Origin: a virus
Virus record (IMG/VR): IMGVR_UViG_3300032156_000033
Location: 1-40,284 of that record
Direction: 5' to 3' (one strand)
Length of the DNA: 40,284 nucleotides
Shown here piece by piece: positions 1 to 40,284 of this stretch (its first letter is position 1; the number at the start of each line of letters is the position of its first letter). Below the pieces are notes generated by a model that worked only from the letters and a program-made list of their open reading frames with translations, did not search any database and was not told the DNA's origin. The position numbers and the translations under genes were made by a program.

Positions 1-174
1 TAATTGCAAAGTCCCTCATCGAAACAAAGGACTTCTTCCGAGTGTCTTTTGATGATGGGACGCATTTGGATGTTTCTCACCATCACAGGTGGACAATTTT
101 CGATCTCTCCAAGAGAGGCCGAGGCGATAAGGAGCGTGGTAATTTCAAATGCACGGTTGATACCGCATGGCTCC
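1..174. repeat. Terminal direct repeat, left copy (contig circularisation overlap)
   Basis: These 174 bases match 40111-40284 except at one position: T at 128 against C at 40238. The difference is synonymous (GAT/GAC, Asp) in the terminase intein. The overlap shows that the contig closes into a circle of about 40,110 bp. It is either an assembly overlap of a circularly permuted, headful-packaged genome or, less likely, a physical terminal redundancy. It lies inside a gene, which favours an arbitrary assembly cut over a specific terminus. Confidence 0.95.
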
Positions 175-974
175 TGTCCCAGGATTTAAAATACCGAGAC
201 CAAAACAGGTTTGCCATACCAATTATCACTGGTCCAGTTGTTAATTTTGACCCATGTGAACCAGAAATACCGCCCTATGCCCTTGGTTATTGGCTTGGGA
301 ATGGTTACAACCAAGGCTCTACCATGGCATGCAACACAGATGACGTTGACGCCGTCCTAGAGAACCTTAAGCCAGAGCTAGGGGAGCTGTCTTATAGGAT
401 CTATGACCCAACAGCTAAAAGAGCGACTATCCTAACCCCTGGGTGGAGACAGATCCTCAGGAATGCTGGATGGCCCTGCTACAAAGAAAAATCCGAGGTT
501 GGGAATAGCCGAACCGTCTTCACCAAAAATGGGTTCACCCTCAATTGGAGATCTTGGAGTGTTGAGAATAGGAAGAGCTTGCTGGCTGGGCTATTGGATT
601 CAGATGGGCACGCTACGAGTAGGGGGGATGCCGAATTTGACAGCACTGTAGAAGATATAGCTATGTTGGTGAGATCCCTTTTGGTGTCTCTTGGGATGAA
701 ACCCACCCAGGCCTCAATAAAAATGCCTTCCGTTGGGGTTAGTGCTAGCCACAATAAGTTGCCATCTCTAAGGATTGGCGTAACTCCTACAATGCAAGTG
801 TTTAACCTTAAGCGCAAGGCTGAATGTGTTGTTATCCGAGAAAGGTCAAAACGGCAATCAAGGCGTTATATCACGTCTATTGAGCCGATTGGCAGACAGG
901 AAGGGCTTTGTTTTGTTGTAGATTCAAAGGACCACTTATATGCCGCAGGACCAGACTATATCATCACTCACAAC
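1..974 (+). other. Class 3 intein with LAGLIDADG endonuclease, main part (begins at 39993)
   Basis: Together with 39993-40284 this is a 364-residue intein between P-loop Lys32 and Ser (+1). Residue 1 is Asp, not Cys/Ser/Ala. Block B reads VSHHHRW with Trp at intein residue 70 (base 90). Block F reads LCFVVDSKDHLYAA with Cys343 (base 909). The C-terminus is ITHN with Thr362 and the usual His-Asn. Trp/Cys/Thr is the class 3 signature, in which the block F Cys attacks the N-terminal junction directly. Between the splicing halves is a DOD-type endonuclease with motifs ALGYWLGNGY (Asn140 in the usual Asp position) and LLAGLLDSDG (Asp239, Asp241). Endonuclease activity is doubtful; splicing residues look intact. 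Confidence 0.9.
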
Positions 975-2324
975 TCTGATTGTCTCTTGGGAGACTGGCT
1001 TGCTCATCAACAGTCTTTCGGGGGTAACTCTAGAGGAGTTCTGTTTCGGAACTCCTACCCGGAACTTCAGGAAATCCTTGGACGAATGCATATCGTCTTT
1101 GGGGCCATCGGAGCCAAGTGGAGAGAAAAAGATACAACCTGGACCATGCAAAATGGATCCCAACTTCGTCTTTCCTATCTAGATTCCTTTGAGGATGCCC
1201 TTAAACACCGGGGTAACCAATATGACTGGCGTGGACATGATGAATTAACAATGAGGCCCAGTGATGAAGAGTATGTGTTTCTATATTCTCGCATGCGTTC
1301 TGCTCACGGCATCCCTACTCGCACTATTTCTACTAGCAATCCTGGAGGACCAGGCCACACCTGGGTCCTCCGAAGATTCGGAATCGACAAATACCCCAAA
1401 GGAATGAAGCCGATCCATGAATATCTTGATATTAACAAGAATATCACCCTAGAAGATGGGAGCCAATACGATGCCATACCTAACGATCAACTCCCGGTGG
1501 ATATACGAAGAAACACCAGAATCTTCATCCCTGGGAGGCTTTCAGATAATAAATTCCTTGATACAGACGGCCACTATAGGGCACATCTACTGGCTCTCCC
1601 AGAGGCGCAACGTCGGATGCTGCTTGATGGACGATGGGATATCGTCGAGGGTGCTTTCTTTGATGAGTGGGATCCTAATGTCCACGTAGTAAGAGCCTTC
1701 AACCCCCCGCCGTCCTGGAAGAGGTGGATGAGTGGAGACTGGGGCACATCTGCCCCCTATGCCTTTGTCTGGTTCGCCCAATCCCCCAATGGGGAGGTCT
1801 TCGTCTATCGGGAACTCTATGGCACCCAGATGGGTACTAATATTGATAAGGGGGTCAAGGAACCACCCACAACCGTATCTGACCGTATCAATGCCCTTGA
1901 GCAGGAAGGCGATGAATATCTCCAGGAACGGTGGATTGATGCCTCCTGCTTTGACAACCACGAGATGGGGACTAGCGTTTCAGAGCAGTTCAGGCTAAAG
2001 GGCATCTTCTTTCAGCCCTCCCAGAAGAAGTTTAAGTCAGGGAGCATCGCCATGTTCCGAGACTACCTGAAGGTGACCAATGGCATCTGCCGGTTCCATG
2101 TCATGGATAACTGTGTCCACCTGATTCGGACCCTCCCAGCATTAATGGTTGATAGAAACAACGTGGAACAGTATGATACGAAGGGGCCTGACCATCTATT
2201 AGACGCTGTAATCTATGGGATAAGGCGCAATATCAAGACTCGGGAAGAGTTGAACCACGAGCGGGGCTCTGTGGATAGGAATTTGCGCGTTATTAAAAGA
2301 TTTGGCGCTTTCGGCGCTCATTAG
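1..2324 (+). CDS. Terminase large subunit, C-terminal part (gene continues from 39897; contains an intein)
   Basis: The frame enters from the other end of the contig (codon phase at base 3) and ends at 2324. With 39897-40284 it encodes an 845-residue precursor: 32 extein residues, a 364-residue intein, and 449 extein residues. The spliced protein is about 481 residues, normal for a large terminase. From base 975 the extein starts SDCLLGDWL, completing the Walker A P-loop GGAAGGGKS. The Walker B region is YDWRGHDELT, the coupling motif is STSNPGGPG, and the C-terminal nuclease has the acidic clusters SGDWG, WIDAS and GPDHLLDAV. This enzyme pumps DNA into the prohead through the portal encoded next door and cuts it. 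Packaging ATPase activity depends on the intein being removed because the P-loop is split. Family and intein calls are secure; headful packaging is inferred. Confidence 0.93.
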   Translation, partial: IAKSLIETKDFFRVSFDDGTHLDVSHHHRWTIFDLSKRGRGDKERGNFKCTVDTAWLLSQDLKYRDQNRFAIPIITGPVVNFDPCEPEIPPYALGYWLGNGYNQGSTMACNTDDVDAVLENLKPELGELSYRIYDPTAKRATILTPGWRQILRNAGWPCYKEKSEVGNSRTVFTKNGFTLNWRSWSVENRKSLLAGLLDSDGHATSRGDAEFDSTVEDIAMLVRSLLVSLGMKPTQASIKMPSVGVSASHNKLPSLRIGVTPTMQVFNLKRKAECVVIRERSKRQSRRYITSIEPIGRQEGLCFVVDSKDHLYAAGPDYIITHNSDCLLGDWLAHQQSFGGNSRGVLFRNSYPELQEILGRMHIVFGAIGAKWREKDTTWTMQNGSQLRLSYLDSFEDALKHRGNQYDWRGHDELTMRPSDEEYVFLYSRMRSAHGIPTRTISTSNPGGPGHTWVLRRFGIDKYPKGMKPIHEYLDINKNITLEDGSQYDAIPNDQLPVDIRRNTRIFIPGRLSDNKFLDTDGHYRAHLLALPEAQRRMLLDGRWDIVEGAFFDEWDPNVHVVRAFNPPPSWKRWMSGDWGTSAPYAFVWFAQSPNGEVFVYRELYGTQMGTNIDKGVKEPPTTVSDRINALEQEGDEYLQERWIDASCFDNHEMGTSVSEQFRLKGIFFQPSQKKFKSGSIAMFRDYLKVTNGICRFHVMDNCVHLIRTLPALMVDRNNVEQYDTKGPDHLLDAVIYGIRRNIKTREELNHERGSVDRNLRVIKRFGAFGAH

Positions 2325-25046: not shown

Positions 25047-25419
25047 GGATAGCCTCAACCAATGCCCTTTCGAGGGCATCTACAATTCCCATAGCGGAAG
25101 GGGCTGACAATAACATTGAATCATTCCCTGTAACAGCCGTATATGCCTTAAGACCCGCCAATTCTTTTTTTGTTAGCGGTCTGGAAGAGGTTGTGGCGGC
25201 TCCCTCCCTAAGTGATTTTAAGATAACATCCCGGTGCAATCTCAGAGCGGCCAAGACGGGCGCGTAAGCAGGATCCACTCTGTGGATAAAGGACCGCTCA
25301 CCTGGTAGAACGCAAATGAGATGAACCCCAGGAGGCATTGAACTCATTATCTCGGAGTCATAATAGGAAACAGCTTCGTAACGCCTCCCAACCTTCCGGT
25401 AAAACACTTCCTGAGTCAT
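25039..25419 (-). CDS. Hypothetical protein, unknown
   Basis: A 126-residue protein starting at ATG 25419, overlapping the glycosyltransferase stop as ATGA, with AGAGGAG six bases upstream. The N-terminal half is a compact beta-like domain (VFYRKVGRRYEAVSYYDSEI, GVHLICVLPGERSF). A helical region follows (VLAALRLHRDVILKSL), then a Ser/Thr-rich linker. No family recognised. Confidence 0.58.
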   Translation of the reverse strand: MTQEVFYRKVGRRYEAVSYYDSEIMSSMPPGVHLICVLPGERSFIHRVDPAYAPVLAALRLHRDVILKSLREGAATTSSRPLTKKELAGLKAYTAVTGNDSMLLSAPSAMGIVDALERALVEAIHG

Positions 25420-26456
25420 TGGTGTCTCCTCTTTCTGGCTTCTTGCATGATGTTATCGGACTCGGTGATTGCCTCTTCAGGATAGCCCATGGCCTTCATT
25501 GCGTCCCTCTGGAGTTCAAACGGACCATCCCAAAGAGCGTAAGGCTCTCGGTGCCCCGTACGGTTCTCAGCGAAAGAAGACCCATAGAACAGCCCGTTAG
25601 AGATTGCCATATTAGCCCAGCACATAGCCTCCTGTGCCCTCCCCATCTTTAGGCAGCACACTCCTGCCAAGTGGGAGAGTTCCGAAAGCCCAGGATGCCT
25701 GCCAAGGCCCTTGAGACACCATTCCATTGCGGCATTTGTGTCAAATAGATCCATATAGCACATGGCAACGGTATAGCATATCCACGCATGGGTCGCGCCA
25801 GTCGCTCCCGACAGCAAGGCCCTTTGGAGGAGCCCTATCGCCCCACATGGGTCATCCATAGCCCTGTAACATAGTGCCAACTGGAAGGACCACCTGTAAT
25901 TATCAGGTTCATCGGCCATCTGCTGTTTCAGTCCGCTCACCATACTCACAAGGTTTTTGGTAATTGTTTCTTCGCTCTTTGGGAGTTCATCAAAGACTAG
26001 GCCCTGCATCAGGGCAGGCTGGGTACCATTCCATTGCTCATGGATGTGGCCAACAAAATTAGCCTTGGCGGGTATTCTAAATACTCGCTCTTTTGAGTAT
26101 CTACCGCTTTTATGGATAGATGAGAACACATCTATGTCGCTGTTGTTTAGTATTTCAATGAAATTGTTAGGGAATACAATCCTTTCGTCTGTGTCTAACT
26201 GAATGGCCCATTCCATTCCCTGACTTGCCGCCAATGCAAGCCCCCTATTACGTATTCCTCCCATGCTTAATTGGTCACTACACGCCGTAAATGCAGTGTT
26301 ATTCCCACAAACTTCCCCAATAACAGCCATAGTGACTGGATCAATGCCAAGATCAACAAAAAGGAACTTATCCACATGGTTTTTAACGCTCTCTAGTGCG
26401 TCTCGGATGATGAGATGTCTGTCTGATGTGATGGTGATGGAGCATATTTTAGTCAT
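25416..26456 (-). CDS. Family 2 glycosyltransferase with C-terminal TPR-like repeats
   Basis: A 346-residue protein from ATG 26456 (MTKICSITITSDRH), with GAGG six bases before it and an 8-bp overlap with the upstream stop. The first 170 residues look like a GT2/GT-A domain: an N-terminal beta strand, SVKNHVDKFLFVDLGID, MGGIRNRGLALAASQGMEWAIQLDTDER with DTD in the DXD position. The C-terminal half has TPR-like helices (AIGLLQRALLSGATGATHAW, AAMEWCLKGLGRHPGLSELS, AQEAMCWANMAIS). It probably transfers a sugar to a cell-surface polymer or protein. A host-modifying role such as superinfection exclusion is inference. Confidence 0.75.
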   Translation of the reverse strand: MTKICSITITSDRHLIIRDALESVKNHVDKFLFVDLGIDPVTMAVIGEVCGNNTAFTACSDQLSMGGIRNRGLALAASQGMEWAIQLDTDERIVFPNNFIEILNNSDIDVFSSIHKSGRYSKERVFRIPAKANFVGHIHEQWNGTQPALMQGLVFDELPKSEETITKNLVSMVSGLKQQMADEPDNYRWSFQLALCYRAMDDPCGAIGLLQRALLSGATGATHAWICYTVAMCYMDLFDTNAAMEWCLKGLGRHPGLSELSHLAGVCCLKMGRAQEAMCWANMAISNGLFYGSSFAENRTGHREPYALWDGPFELQRDAMKAMGYPEEAITESDNIMQEARKRRHQ

Positions 26457-26619
26457 CTTCATCCTCAAACATGAGATGTTCAACACAAACCAATAATTTT
26501 TCATTCATTTTGTCTGGGCATTTAGCCTTGGCTAATTCTAGATACTCCCAAGCACATTGAACCCTTTGTTTGTCTGTCAGATGGGATCTTTTAGCCCTCC
26601 ATCTAGTCTCTGTGTTCAC
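26449..26619 (-). CDS. Small protein with duplicated leader, unknown
   Basis: A 56-residue protein starting at GTG 26619 (VNTETRWRAKRSHLTDKQRV), with GGAG six bases upstream. The longer ATG frame starting at 26838 would cross the neighbouring gene and has no fitting ribosome-binding site. It is basic at the N-terminus and acidic at the end (FEDEDD). Its leader GTGACTGT(A)CAGGAGCATG is nearly identical to that of the gene at 26637-26801. Function unknown. Confidence 0.55.
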   Translation of the reverse strand: MNTETRWRAKRSHLTDKQRVQCAWEYLELAKAKCPDKMNEKLLVCVEHLMFEDEDD

Positions 26620-32308: not shown

Positions 32309-32513
32309 GATGATAGTTCTTTCTGTAGGTCTTACACGCCTGGTCAGCGAGATAGGCTTGGTGCTGGGCCTCTGAGTCATCCTCAAGGCGTGAGTTGAGG
32401 AGGGTAAGCGTTTCTTCAATATGCTTGAGGGCCAATTTGGGCGAAACCATTTCTTGCTTGTTGTTTTCAAGGATAAGCCAGATTGTCTCAATTGCTTCTT
32501 CGTGCCGGTTCAT
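32301..32513 (-). CDS. Small helical protein, unknown
   Basis: A 70-residue protein, ATG 32513 overlapping the upstream stop as ATGA, with GGGGG upstream. It is helical and acidic (MNRHEEAIETIWLILENNKQ; LALKHIEETLTLLNSRLEDD), ending with a basic-aromatic tail KTYRKNYHHV. Function unknown. Confidence 0.55.
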   Translation of the reverse strand: MNRHEEAIETIWLILENNKQEMVSPKLALKHIEETLTLLNSRLEDDSEAQHQAYLADQACKTYRKNYHHV

Positions 32514-33100
32514 CGCGCCCCCTTTTTATTGCGGTCAATGACCAATTTACGTACCACAGCATATGGGATAAGTTCACGCAGCCTGTTGGCTTGAGCAGCC
32601 CCCGCAGCATCCCGCGCAGCAGCCCACACAGCAGACCCCGCAGCATCCCACGCAGCAGCCCACGCAGCATCCCGCGCAGCAGCCCACTCAGCATCCCGCG
32701 CAGCAGACCCCGCAGCAGCCCGGGCAGCAGACCCCGCAGCAGCCCCCGCAGCATCCCGCGCAGCAGCCCCCGCAGCAGCCCACGCAGCGTCTAATTTGTC
32801 CTGGCTGGCGTTATCTTCTGCGAAACGTTCCGACACCTCGATGGCGTCTCGGCTTCGCTTGTCTGTCAGTAAATCCCAAACTTTGCGACCATCGGCCAGG
32901 GGTGTATTGCGGACACACCAGCACTCATAACGGCGGGACATTTTGGGATCATCAAAACCCAAATGGGTTACGAGCCATATCATCCAATCCGGACGCTTGC
33001 ATGTTTTCCATGCCCGTTTGAGACTGGGGCAGGTAGCGGCAAATATAGACGCCTCATCACATGCGCCCAGGCTTTTTAGTAGAATCATGTGCTTTTTCAC
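32510..33100 (-). CDS. Ala-rich pentapeptide-like repeat protein
   Basis: A 196-residue protein starting at GTG 33100, overlapping the upstream stop as GTGA, with GGAGGAACT before it. Residues 1-100 form a globular part (ACDEASIFAATCPSLKRAWK; SRRYECWCVRNTPLADGRKV). Residues 101-168 are repeats of about five residues built from A-A-(R/W/G)-(D/A/S)-A, coded by 15-bp units. A basic C-terminal helix follows (LRELIPYAVVRKLVIDRNKK). Ala/Trp/Arg-Asp repeats like these occur in other phages with no known role. Repeat number may vary by recombination. Confidence 0.62.
   Translation of the reverse strand: MKKHMILLKSLGACDEASIFAATCPSLKRAWKTCKRPDWMIWLVTHLGFDDPKMSRRYECWCVRNTPLADGRKVWDLLTDKRSRDAIEVSERFAEDNASQDKLDAAWAAAGAAARDAAGAAAGSAARAAAGSAARDAEWAAARDAAWAAAWDAAGSAVWAAARDAAGAAQANRLRELIPYAVVRKLVIDRNKKGAR
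32594..32790. repeat. 15-bp-period tandem repeats (coding)
   Basis: Imperfect tandem units of GCAGCAGCCCACGCA / GCATCCCGCGCAGCA type cover about 200 bp and code for the Ala-rich repeats on the minus strand. Units differ by point changes, some identical, which suggests slippage. Confidence 0.8.
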
Positions 33101-33613: not shown

Positions 33614-33909
33614 CAGAATCTCCAGACATAGGTGACGGTCAACCCTCCCAGACCCGTAGCGAAGGCATCCATTGCCTCGCATGAATGTTTCTTAGGATGT
33701 TGCTTGTCATAGGCCTCTTTCAGGAGTCCAACCGCGCAAGCAGCTCCTACTCCCCACAATTTAGGATGTTTTGATCCATTGCGTTTAGCTATTTCAATCG
33801 TCAGCCCGGAGACAATCACCCCAGCGGCGAAGTGTAGTTGTTTATCTACTGGGACCAAGGGAGCCGACGACAAGGGGAGATAGAATAATAGTAGAAACAA
33901 CTTATTCAT
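33613..33909 (-). CDS. Secreted or membrane protein, YfiM/DUF2279-like pattern
   Basis: A 98-residue protein, ATG 33909 with GGGGAG five bases before it. An N-terminal signal-type helix (MNKLFLLLFYLPLSSAPL) is followed by VDKQLHFAAGVIVSGLTIEI, then LLKEAYDKQHP and a C-terminal membrane-like helix (MDAFATGLGGLTVTYV). The D-K-x-x-H-F-x-A-G ... G-x-x-K-E-x-x-D ... D-x-x-A-T-x-x-G layout resembles YfiM-type envelope proteins seen in phages. It probably sits in the envelope and could affect lysis or exclusion. Confidence 0.58.
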   Translation of the reverse strand: MNKLFLLLFYLPLSSAPLVPVDKQLHFAAGVIVSGLTIEIAKRNGSKHPKLWGVGAACAVGLLKEAYDKQHPKKHSCEAMDAFATGLGGLTVTYVWRF

Positions 33910-34645
33910 TTTTGCTCCCCTTTACCTTGGCTGCCATAAGAAGTGCTTCGGTTTTAGTGAACTCGAACGCTCCGACCCGGCGTTCACACTTCTCGGACCC
34001 ATCATCCGGGAACTCTGATTTGTTGCTGTTGCGAATACCGATGACATCCCAATCCGAAACGCTCTTCCACAGACAACCCATTCGGACCCACGGCACTCCA
34101 TCGGAGGACACAACGGCCCAGCATTGGTATTTGTAGAGGCCGGTAAAAACAGCCATGTATGAGATTGCTAATTTTGGCCCGTAGGCCCTGTTCAGGTAGG
34201 CCCCGTTCAGGTCGGCCCCGTTCAGGTAGGCGCCGCTCAGGTAGGCGCCGCTCAGGTAGGCGCCGCTCAGGTCGGCCCCTCTCAGGTCGGCCCCTCTCAG
34301 GTCGGCCTCTCTCAGGTCGGCCCTGCTCAGGTCGGCCCCGTTCAGGTAGGCCCCGTTCAGGTAGGCCCCGTTCAGGTCGGCCCCGTTCAGGTAGGCGCCG
34401 CTCAGGTCGGCCCCGTTCAGGTAGGCGCCGCTCAGGTCGGCCCCGTTCAGGTAGGCCCCGTTCAGGTAGGCCCCGTTCAGGTAGGCCCCGTTCAGGTAGG
34501 CCCCGCTCAGGTAGGCCCCGTTCAGGTCGGCCTCTCTCAGGTCGGCCCCGTTCAGGTAGGCCCTGTTCCCATCGTTATCACCCAGCGCCGACAGTTGATG
34601 CAGTCGCAGTACTTCTGAAAGTTCTTCAGGTGTATAGTGTTTCAT
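33902..34645 (-). CDS. Pentapeptide-repeat protein
   Basis: A 247-residue protein, ATG 34645 with GGAGG before CCACAAA. The N-terminus (MKHYTPEELSEVLRLHQLSA) leads into about 26 pentapeptide repeats A-(D/Y)-L-(N/S/R)-(G/E/R) (residues about 28-157), which fold as a right-handed quadrilateral beta helix. A C-terminal domain follows (YGPKLAISYMAVFTGLYKYQ ... EFTKTEALLMAAKVKGSKNE). Pentapeptide proteins can mimic DNA and bind topoisomerases, but many have other roles. Its place near the head of the early operon fits a host-takeover or counter-defence protein; this is inference. Confidence 0.88.
   Translation of the reverse strand: MKHYTPEELSEVLRLHQLSALGDNDGNRAYLNGADLREADLNGAYLSGAYLNGAYLNGAYLNGAYLNGADLSGAYLNGADLSGAYLNGADLNGAYLNGAYLNGADLSRADLREADLRGADLRGADLSGAYLSGAYLSGAYLNGADLNGAYLNRAYGPKLAISYMAVFTGLYKYQCWAVVSSDGVPWVRMGCLWKSVSDWDVIGIRNSNKSEFPDDGSEKCERRVGAFEFTKTEALLMAAKVKGSKNE
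34181..34567. repeat. 15-bp tandem repeats coding the pentapeptides
   Basis: About 26 tandem copies of a 15-bp unit (GGTAGGCCCCGTTCA and the variants GGTCGG, CCGCTCA, CCTCTCA), far more uniform than needed for the protein. This indicates recent expansion or homogenisation. Confidence 0.92.
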
Positions 34646-39262: not shown

Positions 39263-39897
39263 AGATCCCAGAACTACTCAAGCCATTCCTCCCCTATGCC
39301 GCTGGACTCGCTGTAATCGTTTCTGTCTACTCCTACTATCACTACCAGTCAAACAAACGCCTAGAGAGTGAGATTGTGTCTCAACAGAAAGAGGAGCAGA
39401 TCCATGCCCTTCAGGAGATTGCCCAGACGGAGAAGACTAAAGCGGAGGCTGCTGATCTCAAGGCTACTGCGTTGGCAAAGACCACAGAAGAGGCTAAACA
39501 GATCGCGCTTCTTGAACATGACAAATCCGAAGCCCTCAAGCGGAAGCTGGCTGCTCTTCAAGCAGGGAAGCCTCTTCCCCTACCCGGAGGAAACACCGGC
39601 CTGGATGACTCTGCACTGAAGAATCAGATCATTGAACAGCAAGATACTGAGATTCAATCTCTGCATGGGGTGATTGATAACCAGGATAAGGAACTCATTA
39701 CGACAAGGTTATCTAGGGATTCATGGAAGGAAGTCGCAACTCTGAACGAAAAGTCTCTCAAATCGGCAGAAGAACGGGTTAGGGCTGAACAGATTGCCAA
39801 GTCTGCCATCAAGAAGCAGGGTTGGCTTAGGGAAGGCAGGGGTGCCCTCTGGGGCGGTGCCGCCGTATTCGCGGCCCATGCCCTTGGGGTATTTTAA
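39259..39897 (+). CDS. Rz-like inner-membrane spanin (putative)
   Basis: A 212-residue protein starting at TTG 39259, which overlaps the upstream TGA (TTGA); AAGGAG lies five bases before it. An N-terminal membrane helix (about residues 9-26, FLPYAAGLAVIVSVYSYY) leads into a long coiled coil (ESEIVSQQKEEQIHALQEIA; AEAADLKATALAKTTEEAKQ), a Gly/Pro hinge near residue 103 and a second coiled coil. A weak hydrophobic segment ends the protein (LWGGAAVFAAHALGVF). This resembles periplasmic spanins that link the inner and outer membranes. No Rz1 lipoprotein partner is visible, so a different role remains possible. It ends TAATG with the terminase. Confidence 0.6.
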   Translation: MKIPELLKPFLPYAAGLAVIVSVYSYYHYQSNKRLESEIVSQQKEEQIHALQEIAQTEKTKAEAADLKATALAKTTEEAKQIALLEHDKSEALKRKLAALQAGKPLPLPGGNTGLDDSALKNQIIEQQDTEIQSLHGVIDNQDKELITTRLSRDSWKEVATLNEKSLKSAEERVRAEQIAKSAIKKQGWLREGRGALWGGAAVFAAHALGVF

Positions 39898-40284
39898 TGG
39901 CAATTATCTGGCAACCACAGGAACGGCAGAGACTTGTAATCTCGTGCCCCTATCAGGAGATTCTATATGGCGGCGCAGCAGGCGGCGGAAAGGATATAAG
40001 TGTTAATGAAATTATGCACTTACATACCGCACTTGGGCCACAGCAAGTCAAGGCTTGCAAAATTCGTATTGGCGAATACCTGATAGGGTCAGGTGGAACC
40101 CCTGTAAGGGTAATTGCAAAGTCCCTCATCGAAACAAAGGACTTCTTCCGAGTGTCTTTTGATGATGGGACGCATTTGGATGTTTCTCACCATCACAGGT
40201 GGACAATTTTCGATCTCTCCAAGAGAGGCCGAGGCGACAAGGAGCGTGGTAATTTCAAATGCACGGTTGATACCGCATGGCTCC
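39897..40284 (+). CDS. Terminase large subunit, N-terminal part (continues at base 1)
   Basis: ATG 39897 overlaps the spanin stop as TAATG. The first 32 residues (MAIIWQPQERQRLVISCPYQ then EILYGGAAGGGK) are the N-terminal extein, with the first half of the Walker A loop. From 39993 the frame continues as the intein. The last 174 bases repeat 1-174, after which the frame continues at base 3. The join gives an 845-residue precursor. An out-of-frame longer ORF from 39794 is not the gene. Confidence 0.92.
   Translation, partial: MAIIWQPQERQRLVISCPYQEILYGGAAGGGKDISVNEIMHLHTALGPQQVKACKIRIGEYLIGSGGTPVRVIAKSLIETKDFFRVSFDDGTHLDVSHHHRWTIFDLSKRGRGDKERGNFKCTVDTAWL
39993..40284 (+). other. Class 3 intein, N-terminal part
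   Basis: First part of the 364-residue intein, inserted after P-loop Lys32. The N-terminus reads DISVNEIMHLHTALGPQQVK, where the usual block A Cys-x-x-x-(D/G)-T pattern appears as Asp1...Asn5-Glu6, so no N-terminal nucleophile is present. RIGEYLIGSGGTPVRV follows, the common 'GDYV.GSDG.PV.V' strand of Hint folds. The rest runs through 1-974. Confidence 0.88.
40111..40284. repeat. Terminal direct repeat, right copy
   Basis: Matches 1-174 with one synonymous mismatch (C at 40238 against T at 128). See the left copy for what it implies. Confidence 0.95.

Follow-up and report, generated by a model that had tools for sequence, protein, structure and literature searches.

Inteins in the terminase large subunits (TerL) of mycobacteriophages, designated TerL1-a and TerL1-b, are located in the Walker A loop (Kelley et al. 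2016, PMC5050341). TerL1-a inteins are placed between the invariant Lys and a nucleophilic Thr, the 'classic' P-loop insertion, and gp6 of mycobacteriophage Baka, the representative of TerL1-b, showed ready splicing in an MBP-intein-GFP assay as well as cleavage of a target without an intein (PMC5050341). Class 3 inteins are defined by a residue other than Cys at position 1 and by a Cys at C2:4; about 5% deviate in W and T (PMC7891396). The M. chimaera DnaB1 intein belongs to this class and has a Cys-His-Thr triad plus a Trp (PMC7664689). The mycobacterial DnaB inteins of class 3 with known structures (6bs8, 6rix and 6riy) were solved as mini-inteins without an endonuclease.

PI-SceI and the VMA inteins are of class 1 and have a nucleophile at position 1. 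Their structures (1vde, 7qsu and 7qst) combine a Hint domain with a LAGLIDADG domain, and VMA is the host protein.

The window analyzed here is the whole 40,284-base IMG/VR record of an uncultured phage. With a probability of about 0.93, as judged from sequence comparisons, its TerL gene carries, between the Walker A Lys and Ser, a full-length class 3 intein that splices in cis and has a LAGLIDADG domain nested in it; the endonuclease is probably impaired. The intein is an ordinary member of a well-known group, as class 3 inteins occur commonly in the TerLs of phages and the K^S/T site of the P-loop has already been described. Only the Asp at position 1 and the probably decayed endonuclease are less routine. 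The record adds one class 3 intein with well-defined ends to those at the Walker A site of TerL; the understanding of inteins is unchanged.

The terminase gene spans the ends of the record

Positions 1–174 of the record correspond to positions 40111–40284 except for one synonymous mismatch at position 128. The genome is circular or terminally redundant, as shown by this 174-bp match of its two ends. Owing to the single-base difference the overlap escapes exact-match tests.

Joining the ends and removing one 174-bp copy results in one open reading frame (39897–40110 plus 1–2324). The preliminary description had expected the circularized contig to encode a precursor of 845 residues and a spliced product of 481 residues, and conceptual translation across the joined ends gives both lengths, with the 364-residue insert at residues 33–396. 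After in-silico splicing, the protein matches phrog_979 (E=4.7e-34) and phrog_2 (E=1.3e-28), both terminase large subunit. The parts of the gene and its neighbor are as follows.

39897..39992, + strand: N-extein, first 32 residues of TerL, ending ...YGGAAGGGK (Walker A); assigned from the phrog_979 and phrog_2 matches and the alignment with the intein-free TerLs of contigs L004 and L005
39993..40284, + strand: N-terminal part of the intein, starting with Asp1; 40111–40284 is the redundant copy of 1–174
1..974, + strand: remainder of the intein, finishing with Thr362-His363-Asn364
975..2324, + strand: C-extein, with Ser+1 completing the P-loop GKS, the remaining TerL and the stop codon
2351..4333, + strand: portal gene (PF23899 SU10_portal, above cut-off)

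The portal gene downstream of TerL confirms the packaging-gene context, and a major head protein gene also follows in order. Among the scanned proteins of the window, the interrupted TerL is the only terminase large subunit. The contig break lies inside the intein and an annotation pipeline could therefore overlook TerL in this record.

Insertion site and boundaries of the intein

The insert starts with DISVNEI, finishes with IITHN and parts GGAAGGGK from SDCLLG. It is located between the Lys and the Ser of the Walker A loop (GGAAGGGK^S, with Ser as residue +1), which is the P-loop position of TerL1-a type inteins. Intein-free TerLs with 67% identity to the window TerL over nearly the full length are present in two IMG/VR contigs (L004 and L005). 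Both are uninterrupted at the insertion point and read GGAAGGGKSDCL. In the empty-site alignment, FGGAAGGGKSDCLIGDWLAH of these contigs is opposite YGGAAGGGK^SDCLLGDWLAH of the window. These empty sites fix both splice points; thus, the intein comprises 39993–40110 plus 1–974 and Asp is truly residue 1, in agreement with the insert proposed in the preliminary description. That proposal depended on GGGKS at this point in intein-free relatives, and both contigs have it.

Class 3 signature and predicted fold

For comparison, a set of 94 non-redundant inteins (<90% identity, window excluded) was used. It was drawn from 21 annotated records of phages and from the majority of 80 IMG/VR loci. Matches to the intein are present in 700 phage records, many of them within terminases. 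The residues relevant for splicing are located as follows.

84..92 (second copy 40194–40202), + strand: His68-Arg69-Trp70 of block B (B:10 His, B:12 Trp)
909..911, + strand: Cys343 of block F (F:4), predicted initiating nucleophile
966..974, + strand: Thr362-His363-Asn364 of block G

Trp70 is found at B:12, two residues past His68, Cys343 at F:4 and Thr362 at G:5. Position 1 is occupied by Asp and hence not by a Cys nucleophile, and the C-terminal Asn364 is followed by the nucleophilic Ser+1. The intein fits the published class 3 definition (PMC7891396). His68, Cys343 and Thr362 are present in all 94 other inteins and Trp70 in 91. The final His and Asn occur in 93 and 94 of these, respectively, in columns that were partly selected for, the IMG/VR inteins having been cropped at a C-terminal HN with S, T or C as the next residue. 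Cys343 additionally aligns with the block F Cys of 6bs8. The class 3 assignment with Trp70, Cys343 and Thr362 made beforehand is borne out: all three residues are at the expected positions, and Trp70 and Cys343 align with class 3 inteins within blocks B and F. Block A is longer by four residues than in most relatives, and its conservation is poor.

Against a class 3 intein profile from which the window was left out, the insert scores E=4.9e-67, with the search space fixed at 1e6. As neither 50 shuffled sequences nor the reversed sequence nor the spliced TerL gave a match to this profile, a chance match is excluded. A single intein sequence as query against viral contigs retrieved no close relative, and Pfam and NCBIfam searches gave weak matches to the intein or none. 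In view of the E-value of the tailored profile, the poor recognition by Pfam and NCBIfam reflects divergence, not absence.

Among solved structures, the mycobacterial DnaB inteins 6bs8 (E=4e-6), 6rix and 6riy match best in sequence, aligned on the block B Trp and C...THN. They share the Trp-Cys-Thr residues and the C-terminal THN with the window intein, whereas the host protein differs. An AlphaFold2 model of intein residues 41–364 (pLDDT 89.2, pTM 0.88), the part encoded in one piece after the contig break within the intein, matches the PI-SceI, TliVMA and PhoVMA inteins. The predicted fold is a Hint domain combined with a LAGLIDADG domain, the architecture of PI-SceI and the VMA inteins.

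Inteins at the same site

The loop GGAAGGGK^ is also interrupted in a Thiohalocapsa phage (LS06-2018-MD04, L010, followed by Ser) and in the IMG/VR loci L047 (Ser), L053 and L059 (both Thr); each of these inteins ends with THN. Variant loops are interrupted in L046 (GGSAGGGK) and L104 (GGSAGSGK). The six inteins share no more than about 30% identity with the window intein and are placed apart from it in a quick tree, in which local support is weak (0.54). The P-loop site has likely been occupied repeatedly, and the branching hints at separate arrivals. In contrast to the window intein, L010, L047, L053 and L059 have Leu, Gly or Glu as residue 1 and the canonical GDG in block C, and they are not its nearest branches.

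Identity to TerL1-a and TerL1-b (e.g. Baka gp6) is about 29% or less and the host terminases differ. The Baka intein nevertheless shares Trp, Cys and Thr, the LAGLIDADG domain and Asp1 with the window intein. Its endonuclease is active (PMC5050341) and block C reads GDG, whereas the window intein has GNG and lacks the block D Lys.

Asp at position 1

Position 1 of the 94 other inteins is Ala in 50 cases, followed by Leu (9), Pro (8), Gly (8), Arg (4), Gln (4), Met (3), Asp, Ser and Glu (2 each), and Val and Cys (1 each). One of the two Ser (L012) is uncertain, as that record begins at or near intein residue 1. The two inteins with Asp1 are L030 from an uncultured phage in IMG/VR (GAGK^DLDIST) and Baka gp6 (NGKG^DLGHNT...THN^S). 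The boundary of the latter is backed by phage LittleE, which has no intein there and reads NGKGSILEALEL. Asp1 thus recurs in class 3 inteins that are distantly related, and it is one of many tolerated non-nucleophilic first residues. It is uncommon, not new, and its compatibility with splicing is known from Baka TerL1-b.

Splicing and terminase function

By homology with the established class 3 chemistry (PMC4031507), Cys343, aided by His68 and Thr362, would attack the peptide bond between Lys and Asp1 and form the block F branched thioester. The N-extein would then be transferred to Ser+1 and cyclization of Asn364 would release the intein. An acyl shift would finally generate the native Lys-Ser bond and restore GGAAGGGKS. 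Since the P-loop is broken in the precursor, the packaging ATPase should need splicing, and ATPase activity is not expected of the unspliced protein.

The endonuclease domain

Three positions of the LAGLIDADG domain are relevant for its activity.

300..302, + strand: Asn140 at the position of the catalytic Asp in the first LAGLIDADG motif (LGYWLGNG)
528..530, + strand: Asn216 at the position of the block D Lys, with the usual NKHIP lost
603..605, + strand: Asp241 of the second LAGLIDADG motif (LLAGLLDSDG), intact

An active endonuclease is characterized by an acidic catalytic residue in both LAGLIDADG motifs and by a conserved Lys in each of the blocks D and H. The LAGLIDADG fold is present in the predicted model. 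Asp241, which is found in all 94 other inteins, and Lys312 of block H are retained. In block C, however, the window intein has Asn140, while the other inteins have Asp (86), Asn (7) or Ala (1). Most relatives read N/DKHIP in block D, compared to TKNGFTLNW in the window. Lys215 adjoins Asn216 in this segment, and pLDDT is below 50 at intein residues 208–212 and 214–216. The PhoVMA intein (7qst) provides a precedent for a decayed endonuclease, as it lacks the catalytic Asp residues and is inactive (PMC8966425). Considering Asn140, the loss of the block D Lys segment and this precedent, the endonuclease of the window intein is fairly likely to be impaired.

Five of the seven relatives with Asn in block C have a similar block D with Lys and may, judging from their sequences, form one lineage. 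Since most of the seven keep the block D Lys, Asn in block C may be tolerated on its own, and loss of the endonuclease is not certain. A limited literature search found little on the effects of Asp-to-Asn exchanges in LAGLIDADG motifs.

In L032, L040, L031, L066 and L103, which are also class 3 inteins, GNG replaces GDG in block C and the block D Lys is normal. This group may represent a lineage in which the active site of the endonuclease is altered.

Over 20 bp on each side of the insertion site, DNA identity to the intein-free relative is 75%. The same figure was reported for the Baka-Courthouse pair (PMC5050341); it neither supports nor excludes homing. The GC content of the intein (46.8%) differs little from that of the extein (49.8%), and base composition tells nothing firm about a recent arrival. 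Since the endonuclease is probably impaired, the intein is now probably maintained by being passed on vertically within an essential gene and not by active homing. The need for splicing may be the main reason for its persistence. Of the homing target proposed in the preliminary description, the conserved site stands; active homing is doubtful in view of Asn140 and block D.

Alternative interpretations

The same class 3 intein might carry a fully active homing endonuclease and still be spreading into intein-free TerL genes. The intact predicted fold, Asp241, Lys312 and the conserved insertion site with its 75% flanking identity are compatible with this, and so is Asn in block C of 7 of the 94 other inteins, five of them with a similar, Lys-keeping block D. 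Nevertheless, 86 of the 94 have Asp in block C, the catalytic Asp of blocks C and E is important in other cases, as seen from the inactive PhoVMA that lacks these residues (PMC8966425), and the block D Lys segment absent here is nearly invariant in relatives. A still-spreading intein is therefore unlikely. Probably, the endonuclease has decayed and splicing has been kept. A further scenario extends this loss of homing: Asp1 and the longer block A would tune the first step, splicing of TerL would respond to, for example, redox or pH, and the intein would be retained as a switch that delays packaging. Such a role is highly improbable.

The atypical block A with its four extra residues and Asp1 could also indicate a degenerate intein with defective or slow splicing, TerL being supplied in some other way. 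Every splicing residue is intact and the frame is open, though, and the only TerL among the scanned proteins is the interrupted one, with an ATP-binding loop that is broken unless spliced; defective splicing is very unlikely. A class 1 or class 2 intein starting further in, for instance at Cys22 (ACKIRIG) just upstream of the conserved IRIGE, would leave 21 extra residues in the Walker A loop. Intein-free relatives have no such residues and the empty-site alignment rules out this start. Furthermore, related inteins also have about 20 residues between the P-loop Lys and that point, and Trp, Cys and Thr are the class 3 signature, which leaves the Cys22 start a negligible probability. An assembly artefact made at the contig ends is equally hard to reconcile with the data. 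The break does lie within the intein, and the only class named for the record ends is the IMG/VR virus-record list. The 174-bp overlap, with one synonymous mismatch, however, joins in frame, and the parts of the joined protein on either side of the junction resemble other inteins.

Further observations

Several intein-bearing terminase-like genes in the phage records L009, L010, L020 and L024 are labelled 'exonuclease' or 'DarB-like antirestriction'. These labels are probably annotation errors due to the intein. Elsewhere in the window, a predicted glycosyltransferase is encoded at 25416–26504 (− strand; phrog_13126, E=2e-11), whereas the structural genes are on the opposite strand. The open reading frame 32510–33100 (− strand) contains a long Ala-rich repeat (AARDAAGAA...), and the 247-residue product of 33902–34645 (− strand) consists largely of A(D/Y)LxGAxLNG pentapeptide-type repeats.
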